Origin: a bacterium
GTDB taxonomy: Bacteria; UBP14; UBA6098; JAFGQG01
NCBI GenBank assembly: GCA_016930435.1
Contig: JAFGGQ010000139.1
Location: forward strand, 1-18,048
Reading direction: 5' to 3'
DNA: 18,048 nucleotides
Of this stretch, positions 2,173 through 12,785 are shown piece by piece (the first letter of the stretch is position 1; the number at the start of each line of letters is the position of its first letter). A program made the position numbers and the translations under genes. The notes beneath the pieces were generated by a model. The model was not told the origin of the DNA. It worked only from the letters and a program-made list of their open reading frames with translations, and searched no databases.

Positions 2173-2292
2173 TTAAAATTAACTTTTTCCAATTCCATCA
2201 TTAACCTCTCGTTCTATGTAAACGGGCTAACCCGGTATTATTCTTTAAGAATATAAACATACATTCTGGTCCACTAATAAAAAAATAAAAAC

Positions 2293-2321
2293 AATTTATT
2301 CAATAAAACACGGTTCGTCAA
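2293..2321 (-). promoter_or_regulatory. Candidate sigma-70-type promoter of the barrel-protein gene
   Basis: On the minus strand TTGACG (2321-2316) and TAAATT (2298-2293) are spaced by exactly 17 bases, five and four matches to consensus. It would give a leader of about 125 bases. The leader contains a perfect palindrome with 6-base arms (ATTCTT-T-AAGAAT, 2240-2252) and a short CGGG/CCCG inverted repeat (2223-2234). Confidence 0.45.
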
Positions 2322-2400
2322 GAAAAATATTTCATTTTTAGATTGCTTTCAAGGTGAGTTCGTTTATCTTATTTATTATATTTAATGCTGAGGAAATTAT

Positions 2401-3261
2401 ATGGATTTTGAACAAGTTCTTGAACGGGAAGGCCTTCTTATAGAGAACCATCTGGAACGCTATCTTCCTTCCGAAGATGAAATCCCCTTTATAATTCATA
2501 AGGCGATCAGATATTCGGTATTTTCAGGGGGGAAGCGTTTGAGGCCGCTATTAGTTCTCTGGGCTTATCGCTGGGCAGGCGGTATCGGAGATGGTCCAAT
2601 AAGTGTAGCCTGCGCTATGGAGCTTATTCACACCTATTCCCTGATACATGATGATCTTCCCTGCATGGACAACGATGATCTCCGTCGAGGAAAGCCTACT
2701 TGTCACCGGGCTTTTACAGAGGGGATTGCCACCCTTGCCGGGGATGCTTTGCATGCCCTGGCCTTCGAACTTTTAGCCGTAACCGGAAACATTCAAATAA
2801 TACGGGAAGTTGCCCATGCTATCGGGACAAAAGGCCTTGTTGGCGGCCAGGTGATTGACCTCCTCACCGAAGGCCATGAATTCAATGAGGAAACTCTGAA
2901 ATATATCCACTACCATAAGACCGCATCCCTGATCACCGTTGCTCTTAGATGCGGCGCATTGCTGGCCGGAGCAAACACCGAAGAAATGGAATCGATCACT
3001 AATTATGGAACCAATCTGGGATTAGCCTTCCAGATCGTGGACGATATCCTTGATATCAAGGGCAATACCACGCAGTTAGGCAAAACAGTCGGCTCCGATG
3101 AGAATAAGGGTAAGGCTACCTACCCCAGATTATTCGGGATTGAACGGTCAGAATCAATCGCCGGGGACCTAATCGATTGTGCCAAGGGTTCTTTGCCTCC
3201 GGACAAAGATAACACATTGTTTTTTGAACTGGCGGATTTCGTTATTAACCGTGTTTATTGA
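2401..3261 (+). CDS. ispA: Polyprenyl (farnesyl/geranylgeranyl) diphosphate synthase
   Basis: A 286-residue trans-prenyltransferase that condenses isopentenyl diphosphate with allylic diphosphates. Visible motifs are GGKRLRP (43-49, substrate-binding), the first Asp-rich motif DDLPCMD (84-90, bacterial DDxxxxD type), RRGKPT just after it, and the second Asp-rich motif DDILD (214-218). The C-terminus ends in a conserved short helix (ELADFVINR). Length is close to E. coli IspA. Chain length (C15 or C20) cannot be fixed by eye. The start ATG has GAGGA 6 bases upstream (2390-2394). It is first in a same-strand run with dxs 18 bases downstream, a classic pairing. The usual upstream xseB is absent; the gene begins after a divergent intergenic region. 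Confidence 0.95.
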   Translation: MDFEQVLEREGLLIENHLERYLPSEDEIPFIIHKAIRYSVFSGGKRLRPLLVLWAYRWAGGIGDGPISVACAMELIHTYSLIHDDLPCMDNDDLRRGKPTCHRAFTEGIATLAGDALHALAFELLAVTGNIQIIREVAHAIGTKGLVGGQVIDLLTEGHEFNEETLKYIHYHKTASLITVALRCGALLAGANTEEMESITNYGTNLGLAFQIVDDILDIKGNTTQLGKTVGSDENKGKATYPRLFGIERSESIAGDLIDCAKGSLPPDKDNTLFFELADFVINRVY

Positions 3262-3279
3262 TATTTTATAATAGAACTA

Positions 3280-5184
3280 ATGGCAATTTTTGAACAAATC
3301 AACTCCTACCTCGACCTTAAGGTTCTGAGCTATGATGAATTGGATCAGTTAGCCGGAGAGATCAGGGACTGTTTAATCGAAAACGTATCCCAAACCGGGG
3401 GTCATCTGGCTCCCAGCCTTGGTGTAGTGGAATTGACTTTAGCACTCCTGCGGGTCTATGATCCCCATAAAGACAAGATAATCTGGGACGTAGGCCACCA
3501 GGTTTACACATATAAGTTACTTACCAATCGCAAAGAGCAATTTCCCACACTCCGGCAGTGGCAGGGGATATCCGGCTTCCCCAAGCGGGAGGAAAGCGAG
3601 CTGGACCACTGGGGCACCGGGCACGCCAGCACTTCGATCTCAGCCGCCCTCGGAATGTCCATCGCCCGTGATCTGAAAGGAGAAGAACACAATGTCATCG
3701 CCATTATCGGAGATGGCGCCCTCACCGGTGGGCTGGCCTTCGAGGGAATGAATAACGCCGGCTCAGCACAGTCCGAGATACTCGTCATCGTTAATGATAA
3801 CGAGATGTCCATAACCGAAAACGTGGGAGCGCTTTCAAAATACCTTACCGAGATAATCACAAATCCTCTTTACCGGAAGTTAAAGAGCGAGATATGGGAC
3901 ATTACAGGTAAGCTTTCGCAGGTGGGTAAACCTATTCGGGCCATGGCTCGCAAACTACAGGAAAGCGTCAAAAACCTCGTGGTTCCGGGGATTCTATTTG
4001 AGGAACTGGGCTTCAGCTATTACGGCCCTATAGATGGCCACAACATCCGGCATCTGGAACACATACTGGCCGAGATCAAGGAAATCAAACAGCCCAAAAT
4101 TTTGCACGTTGCCACTCAGAAGGGAAAGGGTTATAAATTCGCTGAGGATGATGCTCCTAAGTTTCATGGAATAGGGTCATTCAACCCCAAGACCGGGCAA
4201 AAGACCGATTTATCGAGCCGCAAAACCTATACTGAAGTATTTGGTGAGACCATGGTGGAACTTGGTCAGAAATATGATAATCTGGTAGCTATTTCCGCAG
4301 CGATGTCCCTGGGTACCGGGCTCTTTGATTTCTCCCGGAAATACCCCGGGCGTTTTTTCGATGTAGGTATAGCAGAGGAACACGCGGTGCTTTTTGGAAC
4401 CGCCCTTGCCGCGCAAGGATTCCGCTCGGTGGTGGCTCTCTATTCCACATTCCTGCAAAGAGCATTCGACCAGTTGATCCACGATGCCGCCCTTCAAAAA
4501 ATACCGGTGGTACTGGCTATCGACCGGGCTGGAGTAGTCGGGGAGGACGGACCCACACACAATGGCACATTCGACCTCTCCTATCTGCGGCTGATACCTG
4601 ATATGGTAGTGGCTGCCCCAAAAGATAAGGACGAACTGCGTAATCTGCTCTATACCGCTATAAACTGGGATAAAGGTCCCTTTGCTATTAGATATCCCAG
4701 AAGCCTTTCCGAAGGATTAGAGAATAATGAAGAGTTCCGGATAATCCCACCGGGAAGCTGGGAGGAACTGGTTCGGGGCGAAGAAGCAGTTATCTTAGCT
4801 TGCGGTTCAATGATAGCACCTGCACAGCAAGCAGTAAACAAACTGGTTATGTTCGATCGTTCCCTGGGACTTGTCAACTGCCGCTATATCAAACCGCTGG
4901 ATGAGGAGCTTTTGGTCACCATCCTAAGCTCATATAGATACATTGTCACCCTGGAAGAAAACACCCTGTTGGGGGGTTTCGGCTCCTCAATACTGGAATT
5001 CGCCTTCAGAAATAATTTTAACAAAAATTTATTCCTGAATCTGGGGATAAGTGACAAGTTCGTACCCCAGGGCGGAAGGGATGAGATACTCCAAAAACTG
5101 GGACTGGATACCGATAATATTACCAACCAGATATTAGCATTTTTAGAAAGGACCAGAAATGGCCATATTAGTAACCAACGATGA
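3280..5184 (+). CDS. dxs: 1-deoxy-D-xylulose-5-phosphate synthase
   Basis: A 634-residue enzyme that joins pyruvate and glyceraldehyde 3-phosphate, using thiamine diphosphate, to make DXP, the first step of the MEP isoprenoid pathway. The transketolase-like order is intact: His42 in TGGHLAPSLG, the thiamine motif GDGALTGG beginning at 144, the NDNEMSI segment near 172, the AEEHAV motif with the expected catalytic Glu366, and GEDGPTHNGTFDLSYLR in the pyrimidine domain. Family length is about 620-640. The start has no strong Shine-Dalgarno sequence, so it is probably translated by coupling to ispA 18 bases upstream. Its last 26 bases overlap surE. Supply of DXP next to a prenyl synthase suggests that precursor and chain-forming steps are co-transcribed. 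Confidence 0.97.
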   Translation: MAIFEQINSYLDLKVLSYDELDQLAGEIRDCLIENVSQTGGHLAPSLGVVELTLALLRVYDPHKDKIIWDVGHQVYTYKLLTNRKEQFPTLRQWQGISGFPKREESELDHWGTGHASTSISAALGMSIARDLKGEEHNVIAIIGDGALTGGLAFEGMNNAGSAQSEILVIVNDNEMSITENVGALSKYLTEIITNPLYRKLKSEIWDITGKLSQVGKPIRAMARKLQESVKNLVVPGILFEELGFSYYGPIDGHNIRHLEHILAEIKEIKQPKILHVATQKGKGYKFAEDDAPKFHGIGSFNPKTGQKTDLSSRKTYTEVFGETMVELGQKYDNLVAISAAMSLGTGLFDFSRKYPGRFFDVGIAEEHAVLFGTALAAQGFRSVVALYSTFLQRAFDQLIHDAALQKIPVVLAIDRAGVVGEDGPTHNGTFDLSYLRLIPDMVVAAPKDKDELRNLLYTAINWDKGPFAIRYPRSLSEGLENNEEFRIIPPGSWEELVRGEEAVILACGSMIAPAQQAVNKLVMFDRSLGLVNCRYIKPLDEELLVTILSSYRYIVTLEENTLLGGFGSSILEFAFRNNFNKNLFLNLGISDKFVPQGGRDEILQKLGLDTDNITNQILAFLERTRNGHISNQR

Positions 5185-5923
5185 TGGCATACATGCACCG
5201 GGTCTGGATAGCCTTGCCCGAAGCCTTGTTGAGATCGAACCTGTTGTAGTGGTCGCACCGGACCGTGAACAAAGCTCTGTAGGACATGCTATTACCTTGA
5301 GTAAGCCCATCCGTATAATGGAAATGTCAGTTTGCGATAAATATAGCGCCTATGCGATTACTGGCACTCCTACTGATGCGGTAAAGATAGCCACTAAAAT
5401 AATACTCCCCGAAAAACCCACGCTGTTAGTCTCGGGGATTAACCTGGGGCCTAATACTGGCACCGCTTTGATCTACTCGGGCACGGTCTCTGCCGCGACC
5501 GAAGGGACCATGCTGGGTATCCCATCTTTCGCTATCTCCCTGAACACCCGGCACGAGCCAGATTTTACCTATGCCGCCAAAGCAGCAAAGATCATAGCAA
5601 TGCAAATAATAGAACGGGGATTACCCAGGGGGGTGTTCCTGAACGTCAATGTTCCCGCTCTACCCGAAAATGCAGTGCAGGGTTTTAAGGTGGCAATACA
5701 AGGCGATTCCTTCTATGCAGACTTTTTTGAGAAACGCCTGGACCCAAGAGGTGGCATATATTACTGGATGGCCGGAACCAAGGAACGCCTGGATAAAACC
5801 GGAAAAGCTGATTATACCCTACTGGATCAGGGCTACGTTACCATCACTCCGGTTCACTACGACCTGACTGCTTATGATTATTTGGATGAATTAAATCGGT
5901 GGGATATTAATAAAGGTCCATAA
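5159..5923 (+). CDS. surE: 5'/3'-nucleotidase SurE
   Basis: A 254-residue metal-dependent phosphatase acting on nucleoside monophosphates, linked to stationary-phase survival. Metal ligands expected for the family are visible: Asp8 and Asp9 in NDDGIHAPGL, Ser39 in PDREQSSVGHA and Asn95 in SGINLGPNTG, followed by YSGTVSAATEG. Length is normal. The start ATG overlaps the end of dxs by 26 bases in another frame, with AAAGGA upstream inside dxs. Both frames carry family-typical sequence up to the overlap, so this is a true overlap and not a frameshift. The next gene begins after 31 bases. Confidence 0.95.
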   Translation: MAILVTNDDGIHAPGLDSLARSLVEIEPVVVVAPDREQSSVGHAITLSKPIRIMEMSVCDKYSAYAITGTPTDAVKIATKIILPEKPTLLVSGINLGPNTGTALIYSGTVSAATEGTMLGIPSFAISLNTRHEPDFTYAAKAAKIIAMQIIERGLPRGVFLNVNVPALPENAVQGFKVAIQGDSFYADFFEKRLDPRGGIYYWMAGTKERLDKTGKADYTLLDQGYVTITPVHYDLTAYDYLDELNRWDINKGP

Positions 5924-5954: not shown

Positions 5955-8549
5955 ATGAATGAGCCCAATTGGCACAACCTTGACCTAAAGGAAACAGCCA
6001 AAAAGCTAAATTCCCATCCCCTTAAGGGAATTGCTTTTTCCGAAGGGGATCAACGGCTATCTGATCTTAAAGATACATTGATATCCGAATCCCATTCTAA
6101 TGACTATTCACAGCTTTTTCTGAGGGCTTTGACTACTCCATCCACTCTATTAATGCTCGTCGCCGTGATAATCTCCCTTGTTTTAGGGCATTATATTACT
6201 GCAATCGTATTGCTAAGCATTATTGCAGGTTTAGACTTTTTGATCATCTCAAGGTGGGTAGCCGCCCAAAAAAGCCTGAGTGAGACCAGGTTCCACCAGG
6301 TTGAAAAAGTCTCAGTAATAAGAGACGGAACCCGCCAGATGATAGGAGTTTCAGAGATCGTTTTAGGCGAATTACTGATACTTGAGGAAGGGACAATCAT
6401 CCCCGCAGACCTTCGAATAACCGAGTCTATCAATCTCCGTATTGATGAATCAACGATTCGCGGTGATAGCTTATCGGTAGAAAAGCAATCTCATAGCCTT
6501 CCTCCCGACACCCCCATATTACAGAGAGACAACATGGCCTATGCCGGCACCAGAGTGATCCACGGCACCGGTAAGGGAATAGCTGTGGCTATAGGCAAGG
6601 ATACCCGCCGGAAACAAATGGATGGTTCCAAAGCGCCGGCCGGTGAAGAGTATCTAAGACTGTTTCAAATCCCCGATGACTTCCACTGGACAACCAAATT
6701 CGTACTCATCGCTATAACCATGATTTTCGGCAGAATCTGGCTGGCCACCGACTATTCATATTTGCCACTAGCTTTTGTAACTATGGCCGTCGCCGCCATG
6801 CCCGAAAGTACCATCGCCCTGGTCCTGTTCCATAGCCGTAAAACTATTCAATCCCTGCAGCAAAAAGGCATACAGATCAGATCACTTCAAACCCTTACAG
6901 AACTTTCCAGGATCGACACCCTTATAATCAACCTGGGCGACCTCTTTTTTGAAGATGAATTGAAACCCCAGAAAATTTTCGTCAATGACAACCTTATCAA
7001 GGTCACTCCAAAAGGATTTCAGACCTATGATCGTGAGATCGATCTCGCCTCCCAGAATGCCCTGGGATTATTACTCAAGATCGGTCTTCTCTGCAATAAT
7101 GCCATCCGGGAAGATAAACCGGGTGAGACATCATCTGCATATTTTGGCGATCCTCTTGAAATTGCCCTCTTAAAATTAGGAAGATTTGCCGGACTTGAAC
7201 AGGATACAGTGAGGCAAAAATATAGACTGGCACAAGAATTTCCCTTTGATCCAGAACGGAAATTAATGAGCGCTGTTTACTCCATTCCCGAACAGGGAAA
7301 TCTGCTTATGGTTAAAGGGGCTCCTGAAATCGTTCTTGAGCGGAGCCAGTTCTTTTATAAGGATTCAAAAGTCCAGAGTATATCACCTGAAGGCAGGGAA
7401 TACTTAGCCCAGAAGATAAAGGAATTCGCATCTGTGGGGCTTAAAGTGATAGCTTTTGCTTATAAAAGCCTTGAGCCGGAATTCACCTGCGAAAAAGCGG
7501 AATTTGGCCTTACCCTGGTAGGATTCGTGGGATTTAAAATCAACCCGAAACCTGAAGCCAAGGATTTCCTGAACAAAATGAAACACCTGGGGATCACTAC
7601 CTATATTCTCTCCGGAGATAACAGGGATACCTTATTTTATCATTTAAGAGAGATAGGCATGGTCAGCCTGAGGGAACACATTTTAGATGCACGTGAATTT
7701 GAGCGGATTCGGGGATCAGCGCAGGAGGGCCAACTTCCCGTTATAAAAGCCCTTTCCCGAATCCGCAAGGAAACCCTGGAATCATTCCTTCAGATGATGC
7801 AGGAGGAGGGCAGAAGGGTTGCAATGCTGGGCACCAACCCACTGCTGGCACCAGTTTTAGCCCGGGTAAACCTACCCTTCACTTTCGAGAATTTAGAAAA
7901 TGATCTTCTTATTGACAGCTCCCAGATGATACTGAACGGGCGGGATCCTGACTCCCTGAAGGAGGCTTTCAGCATCGCTCAACGTTATTCCGCGAACGTA
8001 GCCCTGGGTACCCATCTCTTTTCGGTACTGAGTCTGGCACAGATATTCTCAGTATTTCTATGCTTTCTCTTCAGGTTATCGGCTATACTATTGCCACTTC
8101 AATTGTTATGGGTAAATATTGTTCAGGGGGGATTGATGAACCGGGTCATTTACCATCGAAAACTCAAATCCATCGTTAGGACAGGATCCTCAATCTTCCC
8201 GCGTATATTGCAGTTCGGGACAGCCGCTATGATTAGCCTGGGGCTACTGGCAGCTATGCTCACCCAACAGAAAATTATGAACGGAAATGAGATGCAGATT
8301 CTTACTGCCGGGTTCTTTACCCTGGTTCTAATCCAATTAGGACTGAGCTTTAGCTTCAAAGGCCACGATCTGTTCCGGACCATAGTATTCATTTCTGTCT
8401 CCCTGATTTCCCTGGTATTATATGCCCTGACGACCTGTTTATTAAGCTGGCAATCCTATGGATTAATATTAACATTCAGTACAATACCGGTTTTATTAAC
8501 TATCGGTATGAAAAATCTTATCCGACTGAGAGAGGAAAATTTAAAATGA
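5955..8549 (+). CDS. Degenerate P2-type cation-transporting ATPase homologue (probable pseudo-pump)
   Basis: An 864-residue membrane protein with the full P2A (SERCA/PMCA-like) layout. It has an N-terminal cation-ATPase domain (about 5-40), M1-M2 (about 65-105), an actuator domain (about 110-215), M3-M4 (about 240-300), nucleotide and phosphorylation domains (about 300-680), and a helical bundle to about 855. Conserved pieces include FPFDPERKLMS, KGAPE (454-458), the first Asn of LLWVN (721) and Pro-Glu in M4 (283-284). Hand alignment shows every catalytic motif changed. DKTGT is replaced by INLGDLF (325-331) with no aspartate at the phosphorylation site. TGES becomes RGDS (169-172), DPPR becomes NPKP (530-533), TGD becomes SGD (553-555) and GDGxNDxPAL becomes GTNPLLAPVL (626-635). 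The M6 Asp is Gly (725). Pumping is therefore unlikely. The frame is intact over 2.6 kb, which argues for selection. It ends in a 4-base overlap with the next gene. Confidence 0.88.
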   Translation: MNEPNWHNLDLKETAKKLNSHPLKGIAFSEGDQRLSDLKDTLISESHSNDYSQLFLRALTTPSTLLMLVAVIISLVLGHYITAIVLLSIIAGLDFLIISRWVAAQKSLSETRFHQVEKVSVIRDGTRQMIGVSEIVLGELLILEEGTIIPADLRITESINLRIDESTIRGDSLSVEKQSHSLPPDTPILQRDNMAYAGTRVIHGTGKGIAVAIGKDTRRKQMDGSKAPAGEEYLRLFQIPDDFHWTTKFVLIAITMIFGRIWLATDYSYLPLAFVTMAVAAMPESTIALVLFHSRKTIQSLQQKGIQIRSLQTLTELSRIDTLIINLGDLFFEDELKPQKIFVNDNLIKVTPKGFQTYDREIDLASQNALGLLLKIGLLCNNAIREDKPGETSSAYFGDPLEIALLKLGRFAGLEQDTVRQKYRLAQEFPFDPERKLMSAVYSIPEQGNLLMVKGAPEIVLERSQFFYKDSKVQSISPEGREYLAQKIKEFASVGLKVIAFAYKSLEPEFTCEKAEFGLTLVGFVGFKINPKPEAKDFLNKMKHLGITTYILSGDNRDTLFYHLREIGMVSLREHILDAREFERIRGSAQEGQLPVIKALSRIRKETLESFLQMMQEEGRRVAMLGTNPLLAPVLARVNLPFTFENLENDLLIDSSQMILNGRDPDSLKEAFSIAQRYSANVALGTHLFSVLSLAQIFSVFLCFLFRLSAILLPLQLLWVNIVQGGLMNRVIYHRKLKSIVRTGSSIFPRILQFGTAAMISLGLLAAMLTQQKIMNGNEMQILTAGFFTLVLIQLGLSFSFKGHDLFRTIVFISVSLISLVLYALTTCLLSWQSYGLILTFSTIPVLLTIGMKNLIRLREENLK

Positions 8550-9217
8550 AAAAAATTGCAGTTATGCTATCCGGAGTAGGCTGGCGAGACGGAACAAATC
8601 CCATTGAAGTTGCTTTTGTAATGCATGCATTGGAGGCCGCTGGTGGAGCAAAGATGATCCCCTGCGCGCCCGATATTGAATTTCCCCGGTTGGTGAATTA
8701 CCGGTCTGAAAAAATATTAGACCAAAAACGGAATATACTCGAGGAATGCTATCGAATGATAAACAACACCGTTTATCCGCTGGGTGAGATCGATCCGGCG
8801 GAGATCGATGGGCTGATCATTACCGGTGGAGAGGGCATCCTTTATAATCTCTCGGATTTTTCAACCGGCAACGAGAATATTGCTATATCTGAAAAAGCAA
8901 GACGTTTGGTACAAGGGGTTTTTCTGAGGGGCAAACCTATAGGCACTTTAGGCTACGGAGGCCTTATTCCGGTATTTGCATTAATCAAAGTTGCCACACT
9001 GATCCTGACTATCGGGAAAGACTCTGCGGTAGCGGGAAAGCTTGAGAAAGCCGGGGCGATGATCATTAAGGCAGCCCCCGAAGAAGTCATTATCGATGAT
9101 GATAACCGGTTCTTTTCGAATCATGGGGTCTCCCCTGAAAGTTCGGTAATCAAAACACTTTTAGGGATATCCAGGTTGGTTGAAGAAGTGGTTACCTTCA
9201 AGAAAAAAGCAAAGTAA
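8546..9217 (+). CDS. ElbB/ES1-like class I glutamine-amidotransferase-fold protein lacking the conserved cysteine
   Basis: A 223-residue protein of the ElbB (YhbL)/ES1 branch of the DJ-1/PfpI fold. It shares with E. coli ElbB the start KKIAVMLSG, CAPD, GLIITGG, NLSDF, LTIG and DDDNRFFSN (aligned with VDEDNKIVT). At the nucleophile elbow E. coli ElbB has GFMCIAP, with the reactive Cys. Here the segment is GTLGYGG, with Gly136 at that place and no other Cys nearby. The protein therefore probably lacks the glyoxalase activity reported for E. coli ElbB. Its ATG overlaps the stop of the ATPase homologue (ATGA), implying coupled translation. ElbB was found as an enhancer of lycopene formation, so its place in an operon with dxs and ispA fits an isoprenoid link. 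The function here is unknown. Confidence 0.85.
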   Translation: MKKIAVMLSGVGWRDGTNPIEVAFVMHALEAAGGAKMIPCAPDIEFPRLVNYRSEKILDQKRNILEECYRMINNTVYPLGEIDPAEIDGLIITGGEGILYNLSDFSTGNENIAISEKARRLVQGVFLRGKPIGTLGYGGLIPVFALIKVATLILTIGKDSAVAGKLEKAGAMIIKAAPEEVIIDDDNRFFSNHGVSPESSVIKTLLGISRLVEEVVTFKKKAK

Positions 9218-9322: not shown

Positions 9323-10357
9323 TCAAATGATGCGGATATGATTGGAGTAGATCCAGCCCTTTCCCCTTTTCATTACTTCCACCCGGTAGATTCCTGGCCC
9401 CGGGCAGCGGAACTCAAGGGTGCGGCCGGTCTTAACCCCTAAATGTTCACCGGATCCGATCAACCGGACCTCCCCATTTTCCGGAAGCTCTACATAGAAA
9501 TTCATGTCCGCTCTAAATTTAACGGTTTCGCCCATGATTAACCTGCTCTGGTCAGCCCTGACATAGAATCTGAAACCGTCGGCTTGAGCCACCCTGTAAT
9601 TCGAAAAATAGACCTGGCAGTTTGTCAATAGACGGAAAAACTCCTTTTCTGCTTTCGGAAAATCAGCAGGCAAGGGTTGACGGGTTAGAAGATGTGTTCG
9701 GATAGTCGTAAAATGTACCTTGTACGGAAATATTTTGACCTTAAAAGGAAATTTTCCGTATTTATGTTCGTGGGCATCAGTGGACCCTATTCCGACTACC
9801 GGACGCTCGCGGTTCAATTCATCCCAGATTCTGAGGATCTTAGGTGTAGGTGTACTGAGAAAGCTTCTGGGATGAGTAAAATACCACAGTTTTCTGGATG
9901 ATGCAATTCCCTCCGTCCAGGCGGAAAGGTGGTTCCATATCTCGATCCCATTAAAATCCCGAACGCTCCAGTCGGTCCAGGGATAAGGTGGTAAACTGGC
10001 AGAGGTACGTACCTCATCTGGATGGGCAATTATCCCCACTCCCCCGCGGCGTGCTACTTCTGCAGCATATTCTCCTGAACTCAAATGCTCGGGTAAAACC
10101 TCATCCAGACAGTACGCCAGGAAATGGTTATGGTTATCCTGGTCGTTGATCTCATAACCCATAATAACCAGCACATTGCCGTACCATCCCTCAAGATGCT
10201 TATGCTTCAAAGTCATGTGGTCATTGAAGAGCAGGAAATCCAGACCCATATCTTGCACGATCCCGATTATTTCGGGATGGGTCTTGGTACCATCGGAGTC
10301 ACTGGTATGGACGTGTATCACCCCGCAATATTCATAGAACTCGTCATTATGTAACAC
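9323..10357 (-). CDS. PHP-domain metallophosphoesterase (CehA/McbA-like)
   Basis: A 344-residue protein if started at GTG 10357, two bases after the coaX stop. A longer form from ATG 10420 would lie 62 bases inside coaX and adds residues before the conserved domain, so I prefer the GTG. Metal-binding PHP motifs are present in order: HVH (15-17), NDH (45-47), Glu69, AHPDE (111-115) and STDAH (192-196). The last 80 or so residues are a beta-rich, Ig-like C-terminal domain (from about FRFYVRADQ). This arrangement matches CehA/McbA-type hydrolases. Substrate unknown; family members hydrolyse phosphoesters and, in CehA, carbaryl. No signal peptide is visible, so it is probably cytoplasmic. It is likely co-transcribed with coaX. 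Confidence 0.85.
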   Translation of the reverse strand: MLHNDEFYEYCGVIHVHTSDSDGTKTHPEIIGIVQDMGLDFLLFNDHMTLKHKHLEGWYGNVLVIMGYEINDQDNHNHFLAYCLDEVLPEHLSSGEYAAEVARRGGVGIIAHPDEVRTSASLPPYPWTDWSVRDFNGIEIWNHLSAWTEGIASSRKLWYFTHPRSFLSTPTPKILRIWDELNRERPVVGIGSTDAHEHKYGKFPFKVKIFPYKVHFTTIRTHLLTRQPLPADFPKAEKEFFRLLTNCQVYFSNYRVAQADGFRFYVRADQSRLIMGETVKFRADMNFYVELPENGEVRLIGSGEHLGVKTGRTLEFRCPGPGIYRVEVMKRGKGWIYSNHIRII

Positions 10358-10358
10358 T

Positions 10359-11123
10359 TTATTGCCTGTCTTTGTTGAATTCCCAGATTTTACCAAGCCC
10401 TTTAAACAGAAGGTGCTCATCGACTATCGCAGTATTTTTCAGCTTTTCTTGCGCAATGCCGGCGTACCCACCGGTAAGGATGATCAACGGGTCACTTTCC
10501 AATAGGCTTGAATACCTCTCTATTAAAAAAGCTACTCCACCCAATACCGCTGCCTGGGTACCTAAACTTATGCAGGTCTCGGAATCCTGCCCAATTATAT
10601 CATCGGTAAAAGCAAATTCCACCCTTGGAAGAAGTTTGGTATGTTGATGCAGGGCATGATGGATCATGCTGACACCAGGAACTATAGCACCTCCCGTCAT
10701 TTCATCACCCCTTACCAAATCCACCGTTATTGCCGTTCCGAAATCCACTACTATTACATCACTGTTCTGGACTTTGCCATAGAAAGAATAAGCACCCACA
10801 GCCGTGCTGATCCTGTCCGGACCCAGTTGGCGAGGATTATGATAAGCCAGTTCAAGTCCAAGGTTGAGTTCGGATGAAACCTCAATTTTGTCTAATGAAC
10901 TGTCCTCAAGAGCTTCCACAATAATATCCCTGGTACGCGGAACTACCGAAGAGATCATTACACCCTGAATAGGATAATTACGCTTGACTTCCTCCAGCTC
11001 GGCACGGATACCAGCGGATACCCCCATAGTAGGAGAACTTCCAACCAGCTTCACCTCGCCATTGTCAGAATAACAACCCAGCTTGGTTTTGCTATTACCG
11101 ATGTCAATTGTTAAAATGCACAT
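10359..11123 (-). CDS. coaX: Type III pantothenate kinase
   Basis: A 254-residue kinase that phosphorylates pantothenate using ATP, the first step of coenzyme A synthesis. It has the ASKHA-fold motifs of the CoaX family: DIGNSKTK (7-14, phosphate 1), NPRQLGPDR (96-104) with the substrate-binding Asp103, DFGTAITVD (127-135, phosphate 2), TGGAIVPGVSM and LTGGYAG near the C-terminus. Length is typical. CoaX enzymes need a monovalent cation and escape CoA feedback. The start ATG is preceded by GGTGA. It heads a two-gene minus-strand unit with the PHP gene and is divergent from the phosphotransacylase gene, both linked to acyl-CoA chemistry. Confidence 0.95.
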   Translation of the reverse strand: MCILTIDIGNSKTKLGCYSDNGEVKLVGSSPTMGVSAGIRAELEEVKRNYPIQGVMISSVVPRTRDIIVEALEDSSLDKIEVSSELNLGLELAYHNPRQLGPDRISTAVGAYSFYGKVQNSDVIVVDFGTAITVDLVRGDEMTGGAIVPGVSMIHHALHQHTKLLPRVEFAFTDDIIGQDSETCISLGTQAAVLGGVAFLIERYSSLLESDPLIILTGGYAGIAQEKLKNTAIVDEHLLFKGLGKIWEFNKDRQ

Positions 11124-11294: not shown

Positions 11295-12218
11295 ATGCCT
11301 GAACTTTCTGCAACTATTACCAGTTTTAATCAGATATTTGATAGTATCCATCGTTGTTCTACCAGAAGATTGGCAATAGCTGGGGCAGGGAATTCAGAAA
11401 TTATAACAGCAATTAATGAATCTGTAAACAAAAAGATCGTTTATCCCATACTCGTGGGAGATAGGAACAAGATCCAGCCCCTTATCGAAAAAGTAGGCCT
11501 TCAAGGTGATTACAAGATAATTCATATCACCGGTGACGAGGAGATTGCCCAGAAAACCGCGGAGTTGGCGAAAAGTGGTGAAGCTGAGTTATTAATGAAG
11601 GGGAAGGTACCTACCGGGACCTTTTTAAAAGCTGTACTGGACCGGAAAAACGAGCTTCGGAGCGGCGAACTTTTAAGCCATACTGCGGTAGTGGAGGTGG
11701 AAAAATACCCCAAATTGATGTTATTCACTGATGGAGGGATCAACGTGGCTCCCAACCTGGAGCAAAAAGTGGCGATTCTTAAGAATTCCCTGAGAGTTGC
11801 CGGAGCATTGGGGATAAGCCAACCTAAGGTTGCAGTACTCAGCGCTGTGGAAGTAGTCAATCCCAAGATACCTGATACTTTGGATGCTCAGCAATTGGTT
11901 GAGATGGCCGGTAGAGGGGAATTCGGAGACATTGACATTGCAGGGCCTATCGCAATGGATCTTGCTATTTCAGATTATGCAGCTCAACTTAAAGGCTATC
12001 ATTCCAAGGTAGCCGGTGAAGCTGATGTTTTTTTAGTACCCGATATATCTACAGGAAATATTACCGTAAAAGCCTTGATCTACCTTGCTCAAGCCAAAGT
12101 GGGCGGGATAATTATGGGGGCTAGCATACCAATCATTCTCCTTTCCCGGTCGGATACTGCGGAGATAAAACTCTGCTCTATAGCGCTGGGCTGTATGGTA
12201 GTTGAGGACAAGGACTGA
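11295..12218 (+). CDS. Phosphate butyryltransferase/acetyltransferase family enzyme
   Basis: A 307-residue enzyme of the phosphotransacylase (PTA_PTB) family, which exchanges CoA and phosphate on short acyl groups (acyl-CoA + Pi to acyl phosphate + CoA). Diagnostic segments are LLMKGKVPTGTFLKAVLD, LLSHTAVVEV, LMLFTDGGINVAP, the DIAGPIAMDLAIS region and the C-terminal GNITVKALIYLAQAKVGGIIMGA. The length of about 300 and the KGxVxTGxFL signature are more like Ptb (butyryl) than Pta. The substrate is not settled by sequence. No acyl kinase (buk/ackA) is next to it. The gene is followed after 10 bases by small membrane-protein genes and rpiB. The start was chosen from the AAAGGAG box. Confidence 0.88.
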   Translation: MPELSATITSFNQIFDSIHRCSTRRLAIAGAGNSEIITAINESVNKKIVYPILVGDRNKIQPLIEKVGLQGDYKIIHITGDEEIAQKTAELAKSGEAELLMKGKVPTGTFLKAVLDRKNELRSGELLSHTAVVEVEKYPKLMLFTDGGINVAPNLEQKVAILKNSLRVAGALGISQPKVAVLSAVEVVNPKIPDTLDAQQLVEMAGRGEFGDIDIAGPIAMDLAISDYAAQLKGYHSKVAGEADVFLVPDISTGNITVKALIYLAQAKVGGIIMGASIPIILLSRSDTAEIKLCSIALGCMVVEDKD

Positions 12219-12228
12219 AATAAATCAA

Positions 12229-12507
12229 ATGGTATTCTGGATAATACTGGCCATCAGCTTGAATTTTATATTGTTAATGTCCATCTATAATGGAGCGGGA
12301 CAGGATAGTATTCTTGCTATAGCTTACTCCATTTTGCTTGTGGCTCTCGGCGTTTTGTACCGCAGTTTCATCAAATACAAGGAGGGCAAGCTCGAAACCC
12401 TGGATGAAAAATGCTCCAGATTGACCAAGGAAAATGAAAAACTTAAACAAAAGATCGGGTATTACGAAGCCGAATTCGGCTCGGATAAACCCGTTGAAAC
12501 TAAATGA
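12229..12507 (+). CDS. Small membrane protein with two helices and a coiled coil (paralogue A)
   Basis: A 92-residue protein of no family I recognise. Two hydrophobic segments (about 2-19 and 28-44) are joined by a short polar loop (NGAGQD) and followed by R-S-F and then a charged, heptad-like coiled coil (about 50-78) ending in a polar tail. Both ends probably face the cytoplasm, with the coiled coil inside. The start ATG at 12229 lies 10 bases after the phosphotransacylase stop. A TTG at 12202 would add nine polar residues and overlap that gene. No strong Shine-Dalgarno sequence is seen, so coupling is likely. It overlaps paralogue B by 4 bases (ATGA). Confidence 0.75.
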   Translation: MVFWIILAISLNFILLMSIYNGAGQDSILAIAYSILLVALGVLYRSFIKYKEGKLETLDEKCSRLTKENEKLKQKIGYYEAEFGSDKPVETK

Positions 12508-12785
12508 TAATCTGGACCCTGATCGTAATCGCCCTGGACCTGATCCTCATCATTAGCTATTACCAAGGCTATCATGAAGATTTCATATTGGGAGTGGCTT
12601 ATTTAATCCTGCTCACAGCGGTAGGCATTCTGTACCGGATCTTTAAGGAAATGCGAATGGCCAGGATCGAAAAGCTGGAAAAACTGGTCTCTCAACTCCA
12701 GGAAGAAAACGAACAGCTAAAATTAGTATCGGACATCCAGAAAAGGAATATTCCCCCAGAACAGGATAACAGAGGAATAAAATGA
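12504..12785 (+). CDS. Small membrane protein with two helices and a coiled coil (paralogue B)
   Basis: A 93-residue protein, a diverged tandem copy of the preceding gene. By hand count about 32 of the first 74 positions are identical without a gap, including W4, Y20, G22, D26, the AY and LYR segments of helix 2, and LxEENExLK in the coiled coil. It has two membrane helices (about 2-19 and 28-44), then a coiled coil (about 52-76). It is linked by ATGA overlaps to the gene before it (12504-12507) and to rpiB after it (12782-12785), so all three should be translated together. Function unknown; the design suggests a membrane-anchored dimerising or docking subunit, possibly a heteromer with paralogue A. 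Confidence 0.78.
   Translation: MIIWTLIVIALDLILIISYYQGYHEDFILGVAYLILLTAVGILYRIFKEMRMARIEKLEKLVSQLQEENEQLKLVSDIQKRNIPPEQDNRGIK

Follow-up and report, generated by a model that had tools for sequence, protein, structure and literature searches.

Introduction

The P-type ATPases are textbook pumps that are defined by a phosphorylated aspartate, and mutants of this residue in the Na,K-ATPase (D369) still bind ATP tightly. The replacement of the aspartate by asparagine at the phosphorylation site stops P-type pumps, as is seen in SERCA D351N and in Na,K-ATPase D369N (PMC13322241). In animals, the protein TMEM94, also called ERMA, combines the P-type architecture with the sequences DKQGI and GSSANL and with the absence of TGES (PMC12134183, PMC13322241); in one study, neither ATPase activity nor a nucleotide in the proposed site was found for TMEM94 (PMC12134183), while in another study it was linked to Mg2+ uptake that needs its aspartate (PMC13322241). 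Regarding bacteria, our search for literature on stand-alone dead P-type ATPases, conducted among open-licence papers only, has returned no paper.

The extra half of FUPA24 is reportedly a dead type I pump, as Chan et al. are said to have described in 2010. These mycobacterial proteins (CtpH/CtpI) have a long extra N-terminal segment, and their active motifs are located in the C-terminal half (PMC3573892).

Here, we describe a protein of 864 residues, encoded at positions 5955..8549 of the forward strand of the window, i.e. the whole 18,048-nucleotide stretch of bacterial DNA that was analysed, which belongs to a draft assembly that is 90% complete and consists of 180 contigs. Its sequence and its AlphaFold2 model mark it as a full-length type II P-type ATPase homologue, a pseudo-P2A ATPase that is predicted to be catalytically dead. 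We refer to this protein and its orthologue in genome G001 as group A1, to the copies in genomes G002 and G005 of family f2 as group A2, and to the proteins of another phylum as group B.

Identity and predicted fold of the window protein

The reading frame, the coordinates and the length of the gene are those that the first-pass annotation had given. The open frame is far beyond chance, because the probability that a random frame of 864 codons stays open is about 1e-18 (61/64 per codon), and because the protein matches profile models with strong E-values: in Pfam, PF00122 (1.8e-24), PF13246 (6.7e-20) and PF00690 (1.4e-5), so that actuator, N-terminal and nucleotide-binding cation-ATPase domains are found above the cut-off. 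The HAD phosphotransferase model PF00702 scores 26.2 bits, just below its cut-off of 26.4, and the NCBIfam model of the P2A PMR1-type Ca2+-ATPases (TIGR01522) is matched at 2e-57, with only 194.5 of the required 798.3 bits, so that its curated cut-off is missed. The top match among the solved structures is LMCA1 of Listeria (1.8e-59, residues 24-826). No other PF00122 protein was found in the same genome (2.85 Mb, 90% complete).

The AlphaFold2 model, for which the window protein was aligned with 20 canonical P2A pumps, has a mean pLDDT of 76.3 and a pTM of 0.65; large parts of the N domain have a pLDDT close to 90. The model superposes on SERCA (5ncq) over 850 residues with a Z-score of 30.8, and on LMCA1 (9evc) with a Z-score of 30.1; the P2A homology and fold thus span the whole length of the protein, in the sequence match with LMCA1 as well as in the overlay on SERCA. 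The full P2A architecture of the model is a prediction that is partly imposed, since its alignment contained canonical pumps; the sequence match does not depend on the model.

The catalytic motifs

The motif columns were read from a joint alignment of the window protein with about 28 canonical P2A pumps. A derived segment is the phosphorylation loop, TLTELSRIDTLIINLGDLFFEDELKPQKIFVND (residues 313-345, positions 6891..6989, + strand), where the sequence INLGDL places N326 at the position of the phosphorylated aspartate (SERCA D351) and LGDL at the position of KTGT. The absence of DKTGT that had been claimed from the sequence is therefore real, and it is shared by the orthologue of G001. In the AlphaFold2 model, N326 terminates the strand 322-326, in the place of the canonical aspartate, and an ungapped alignment puts no aspartate at the site.

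Further replacements are found in the A domain, where RGDS occupies the place of TGES (residues 169-172, 6459..6470, + strand), and in the P domain, where SGD replaces TGD and GTNPLLAP replaces GDGVNDAP (residues 626-633, 7830..7853, + strand), with GTNPLL in the columns of GDGVND. The Mg2+/hinge residues are gone with the latter: the equivalents of SERCA D703, N706 and D707 are all missing, and K684 is replaced by L608, while R678 is retained. These three replacements agree with the first reading of the sequence. The loss of DPPR also holds, but the residues aligned with it are INPK (529-532, 7539..7550, + strand) rather than NPKP, which is off by one position. The assertion that every catalytic motif has been lost is a little too strong: RGDS keeps the Gly-acid-Ser pattern, SGD keeps Gly-Asp, R678 is present, and the N-domain pocket is intact. 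The glutamate of the A domain survives in the orthologue of G001, whose loop is RGES at this position.

The nucleotide pocket and the membrane residues

The nucleotide pocket of the N domain is retained (residues 402-455, 7158..7319, + strand): in the joint alignment, E402, F431, K436 and K454 correspond to E442, F487, K492 and K515 of the adenine/ATP pocket of SERCA. The window protein keeps 17 of the 19 residues that are invariant in the N domain of canonical pumps, only one of 16 in the phosphorylation segment, and 17 of 56 in the remainder of the P domain (P2). As far as the aligned sequences can tell, the erosion is selective, the N domain having been spared and the phosphorylation segment not.

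In the membrane part, the Pro-Glu pair of M4, Pro283-Glu284 (6801..6806, + strand), which includes the position of SERCA E309, is retained as had been proposed. M6 carries NIVQG (residues 721-725, 8115..8129, + strand), in which the N796 position is kept, T799 is replaced by glutamine, and the D800 position is Gly725, confirming the reported change from aspartate to glycine. Hydrophobic residues had been assigned to the Asn and Glu positions of M5; the aligned residues are in fact polar, N768 being replaced by S693 and E771 by Q696, and the orthologue of G001 keeps the glutamate at the E771 position. The Ca2+ ligand set of M4, M5 and M6 is thus incomplete, with the E309 and N796 positions kept and N768, E771, T799 and D800 changed.

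Orthologues, gene neighbourhood and selection

In G001, which belongs to another genus of the same family (f1), an orthologue of 859 residues is 39% identical to the window protein, and has CINLGDL at the phosphorylation site. It is the sole orthologue in that family, and it lacks the intact motifs too. The two genomes share the gene order FPP synthase-dxs-surE-X-elbB, X being the pseudo-ATPase. In the window, as assigned by Pfam/NCBIfam and synteny, this collinear cluster consists of the genes of FPP synthase and dxs (2401..5184, + strand), of surE, a 5'/3'-nucleotidase gene that lies directly upstream of the pseudo-ATPase gene and is its neighbour in both families f1 and f2 (5159..5923, + strand), and of an elbB-like gene that overlaps the pseudo-ATPase gene by the four nucleotides ATGA (8546..9217, + strand). 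G001 also encodes a canonical P2A pump; this is a separate, non-syntenic gene with intact motifs, and its product is only about 26% identical. A Na+/Ca2+ exchanger gene of the same orientation lies close to this canonical gene (L065:2-697 and 2192-4939, contig C18).

Elsewhere in the window, a partial frame that runs off the edge (2-1252, - strand) matches the polymorphic membrane protein repeat of Chlamydia (PF02415), and a CehA/McbA-like metallohydrolase frame (9323-11123, - strand) starts within the last 60 nt or so of a gene for a type III pantothenate kinase. Two small overlapping frames of 101 and 93 residues, each with two TM segments and without a clear family (12202-12785, + strand), are flanked by a phosphate butyryltransferase-like gene and rpiB.

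In family f2 of the same class, G002 and G005 have a degenerate P2A homologue of 862 residues after surE, with a 4-nt overlap with surE, where DSDNF stands for DKTGT and FEGK or FEGG stands for TGES; catalytic residues are thus gone in all three homologues of the class. The orthology of the f2 copies rests on their position, because their identity with the window protein is only about 23%; they have also lost the M4 Pro-Glu pair, as well as the N-domain pocket residues, which are missing from the group B proteins too. Two other families of the class, f3 and f4, have no PF00122 protein, though surE is kept in most of their genomes. In f4, the slot after surE is occupied by a Na+/Ca2+ exchanger (PF01699), whose gene overlaps or directly follows surE (L055:5582-6628, L059:4634-5662, L041:2105-3130, L057:5862-6887 and L056:4939-5952). 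A general linkage of surE with Ca2+ transporters has been rejected, as the exchanger is found beside surE only in f4, among 30 related exchanger loci.

With regard to selection, group A1 consists of two sequences only, which are too diverged for dN/dS: dS is saturated, with a pN of 0.43 against a pS of 0.83. The sole measurable pair of the class, G002/G005, gives a dN/dS (NG86) of 0.21, compared with 0.08 for surE; the values for group B, described below, are also not near 1. The two A1 proteins are identical at 20 of the 33 residues of the altered loop (313-345; 61%), against 324 of 864 overall (37.5%; Fisher p = 0.005), and the loop ranks among the best conserved windows of 30 residues. A loop that has no catalytic role, and yet is conserved in its new form, is therefore better explained by a new function than by decay.

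Outside the class, a DNA-pattern scan of genome contigs for close relatives recovered only a canonical clostridial pump, and a scan of viral contigs with the window protein found no close relative. Thirty-five IMG/VR contigs that are labelled viral (L160-L194) carry P2A ATPase genes, many of them full-length and with intact motifs; these contigs may be host flanks or may have been mis-binned.

A second family in another phylum

A profile of the pseudo-P2A proteins, together with the initial search for relatives, led to two genomes of a different phylum, G054 and G331; when that phylum was searched, 83 of 84 genomes had a match, in most cases a single one (L097:6199-8982 in G331, L066:7455-10199 in G054, L098-L147 and L225-L254). 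DKTGT, TGES and GDGxND are all absent from the copies of 59 of the 60 genomes that were inspected, the exception being the canonical protein of G387 (L144). Sixteen close pairs have a dN/dS of 0.08-0.21, and the proteins have conserved replacement motifs of their own, e.g. FGSS, DEKGIAS and LGQNxxDxR in one large clade. The copy in G391 is split into overlapping frames of 399 and 624 residues (L146:4702-7558), a split that a frameshift or a mistake in the assembly may explain.

The gene immediately upstream, on the same strand, is thrB at 38 of the 47 loci with enough flank, mostly preceded by an aminotransferase gene. A link of group B with isoprenoids through a neighbouring GHMP kinase was considered and rejected, as this kinase is homoserine kinase, i.e. 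thrB. Group B looks confined to its own phylum, because all 20 of the other-phylum matches that were fetched, in a sample drawn around G331 from the whole domain, are canonical; most of the lower matches were not read.

Group B resembles the window protein in being full-length, in its loss of motifs, in purifying selection and in a conserved operon position, and differs from it in following thrB instead of surE and in the loss of the N-domain pocket residues. A quick mixture-model tree, which contains long branches, sets each pseudo group apart by a single branch and supports the split between pseudo and canonical proteins at 95; a tree with A1 placed among 16 canonical pumps is better by 2 log units, with a p-AU of 0.56. 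On these sequences, whether dead P2A proteins, including group B and the window protein, have a single origin or several remains unresolved.

Interpretation and alternative explanations

Judging from its sequence, the window protein is almost certainly dead as a canonical P-type pump, its lack of activity being an inference, and there can be little doubt that it is under selection as a protein. The first-pass annotation had read it as a retained pseudoenzyme, a reading that would have been refuted by an orthologue with intact motifs, by a dN/dS near 1, or by an aspartate aligned with the phosphorylation site; this reading is supported, because all three, once tested, went against refutation. 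A recent decaying pseudogene could account for a non-synonymous rate that is about twice that of the neighbours (dN of 0.63 in the A1 pair, 0.25-0.36 in the flanking genes), but hardly for 864 open codons, for a syntenic orthologue that shares the derived residues, for the dN/dS of the f2 pair, or for the extra conservation of the derived loop; the derived state that is common to both genera refutes it, and we give it next to no credence. Even less credible is the possibility that an assembly artefact or an unusual genetic code makes the motifs look lost: the window does come from a draft assembly, but the identical states in the independent genome G001 refute this explanation, and the neighbouring dxs, surE and FPP synthase genes read normally with table 11.

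Two further alternatives keep a transport function. The transmembrane part could conduct cations without ATP, as a channel or exchanger that is either passive or gated, the cytosolic domains forming the gate; E284 of the M4 Pro-Glu pair and N721 of M6 occur in both A1 proteins, the M5 glutamate persists in G001, the A1 pair reaches 42-46% identity in segments M1-M6, compared with a mean of 39%, and a PF01699 exchanger holds the slot after surE in f4. This ATP-independent pathway is nevertheless unlikely: SERCA D800, which is common to both Ca2+ sites, corresponds to Gly725 and N768 to a serine, the M4 pair is lost in A2, the adjacency of surE and exchanger is confined to f4, and PF01699 exchangers are present in all four genomes with a pseudo-ATPase copy. 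Alternatively, the protein could be an active ATPase of a non-canonical kind, in which the phosphate is accepted, or Mg2+ coordinated, by another residue, as some argue for TMEM94/ERMA, for which Asp-dependent Mg2+ uptake has been reported by one group despite its degraded motifs (PMC13322241); D329, three residues from the site, is conserved in G001. We regard this as very improbable: TMEM94 retains its aspartate where the window protein has an asparagine, the latter has lost K684 and the equivalents of D703, N706 and D707, and another group finds no ATPase activity in TMEM94 (PMC12134183).

The reading that we prefer overall is that of a retained pseudo-pump, one that serves in the membrane as a scaffold or regulator responding to nucleotide, and not as an active transporter; we consider it probable without being secure, the role being inferred in the absence of expression data. 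The P2A-type scaffold would no longer be able to form the aspartyl-phosphate, and would thus not go through the normal pump cycle; it may bind a nucleotide, ATP or some other, that it does not hydrolyse, and it may signal through, or scaffold, a membrane complex. A sensing or scaffolding role is made probable by the fact that the residues that burn ATP are gone, and yet the gene is kept in relatives and in another phylum, where the parallel dead family shows that such proteins persist; we rather favour it over a passive ion pathway, again by inference. Such a role, suggested at the outset, fits the selectively conserved N-domain pocket, which does not demonstrate it; that a nucleotide is still bound is somewhat more plausible than its opposite, and is inferred without binding data. 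Nucleotide binding would not be general to dead P2A proteins, because A2 and group B have lost the pocket residues.

The most economical partner would be the SurE nucleotidase of the conserved neighbouring gene, or an unidentified membrane transporter, neither of which is proven; in the absence of partner data, SurE as a direct partner is doubtful, and its adjacency may reflect gene order only, given that surE is present in families f3 and f4, where the pseudo-ATPase is missing. A CNNM/CorB partner has been proposed for TMEM94; we have found no signal of one here, as PF01595 occurs in 17 of 17 genomes of the class, with or without a pseudo-ATPase. More broadly, we put forward only tentatively that Ca2+ pumps have become non-hydrolysing membrane proteins more than once in bacteria, by at least two independent losses of catalysis (one surE-linked, in the class of the window protein, and one thrB-linked, phylum-wide), the body of the pump being retained as a conformational sensor or scaffold, with nucleotide gating through the N domain in the present case.

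Comparison with known systems

The best sequence and fold matches of the window protein are the P2A Ca2+-ATPases (LMCA1, SPCA/PMR1 and SERCA), with which it shares the length, the domain order, the 10 TM helices, the ATP-pocket residues of the N domain and the M4 Pro-Glu pair, and from which it differs by the absence of the phosphorylated aspartate, GDGxND, TGES, DPPR and the M6 aspartate. FUPA24 is also bacterial, but its extra portion forms one polypeptide with an active pump, whereas the window protein stands alone and, by its motifs, is wholly dead.

No TMEM94 chain appears among the best 60 of the 91 sequence matches (1e-3) of the window protein, among the best 60 of the 98 sequence matches of a group B protein, or among the matches listed in the structure search with the AlphaFold2 model; a relationship is not excluded. 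By analogy of character, TMEM94/ERMA is the closest precedent, one whose own activity is disputed: DKTGT, TGES and GDGxND are all degraded within a P-type fold, as in the window protein, but TMEM94 is eukaryotic, has a much larger N-like region, keeps its aspartate and has an occluded nucleotide pocket, whereas the window protein keeps the pocket residues. With one pseudo-pump kept together with its neighbours across genera, and a second family that is phylum-wide with nearly one copy per genome, these proteins offer models of what the body of a pump can do without ATP hydrolysis, as well as natural bacterial models for the dispute over pumping by proteins like TMEM94/ERMA.
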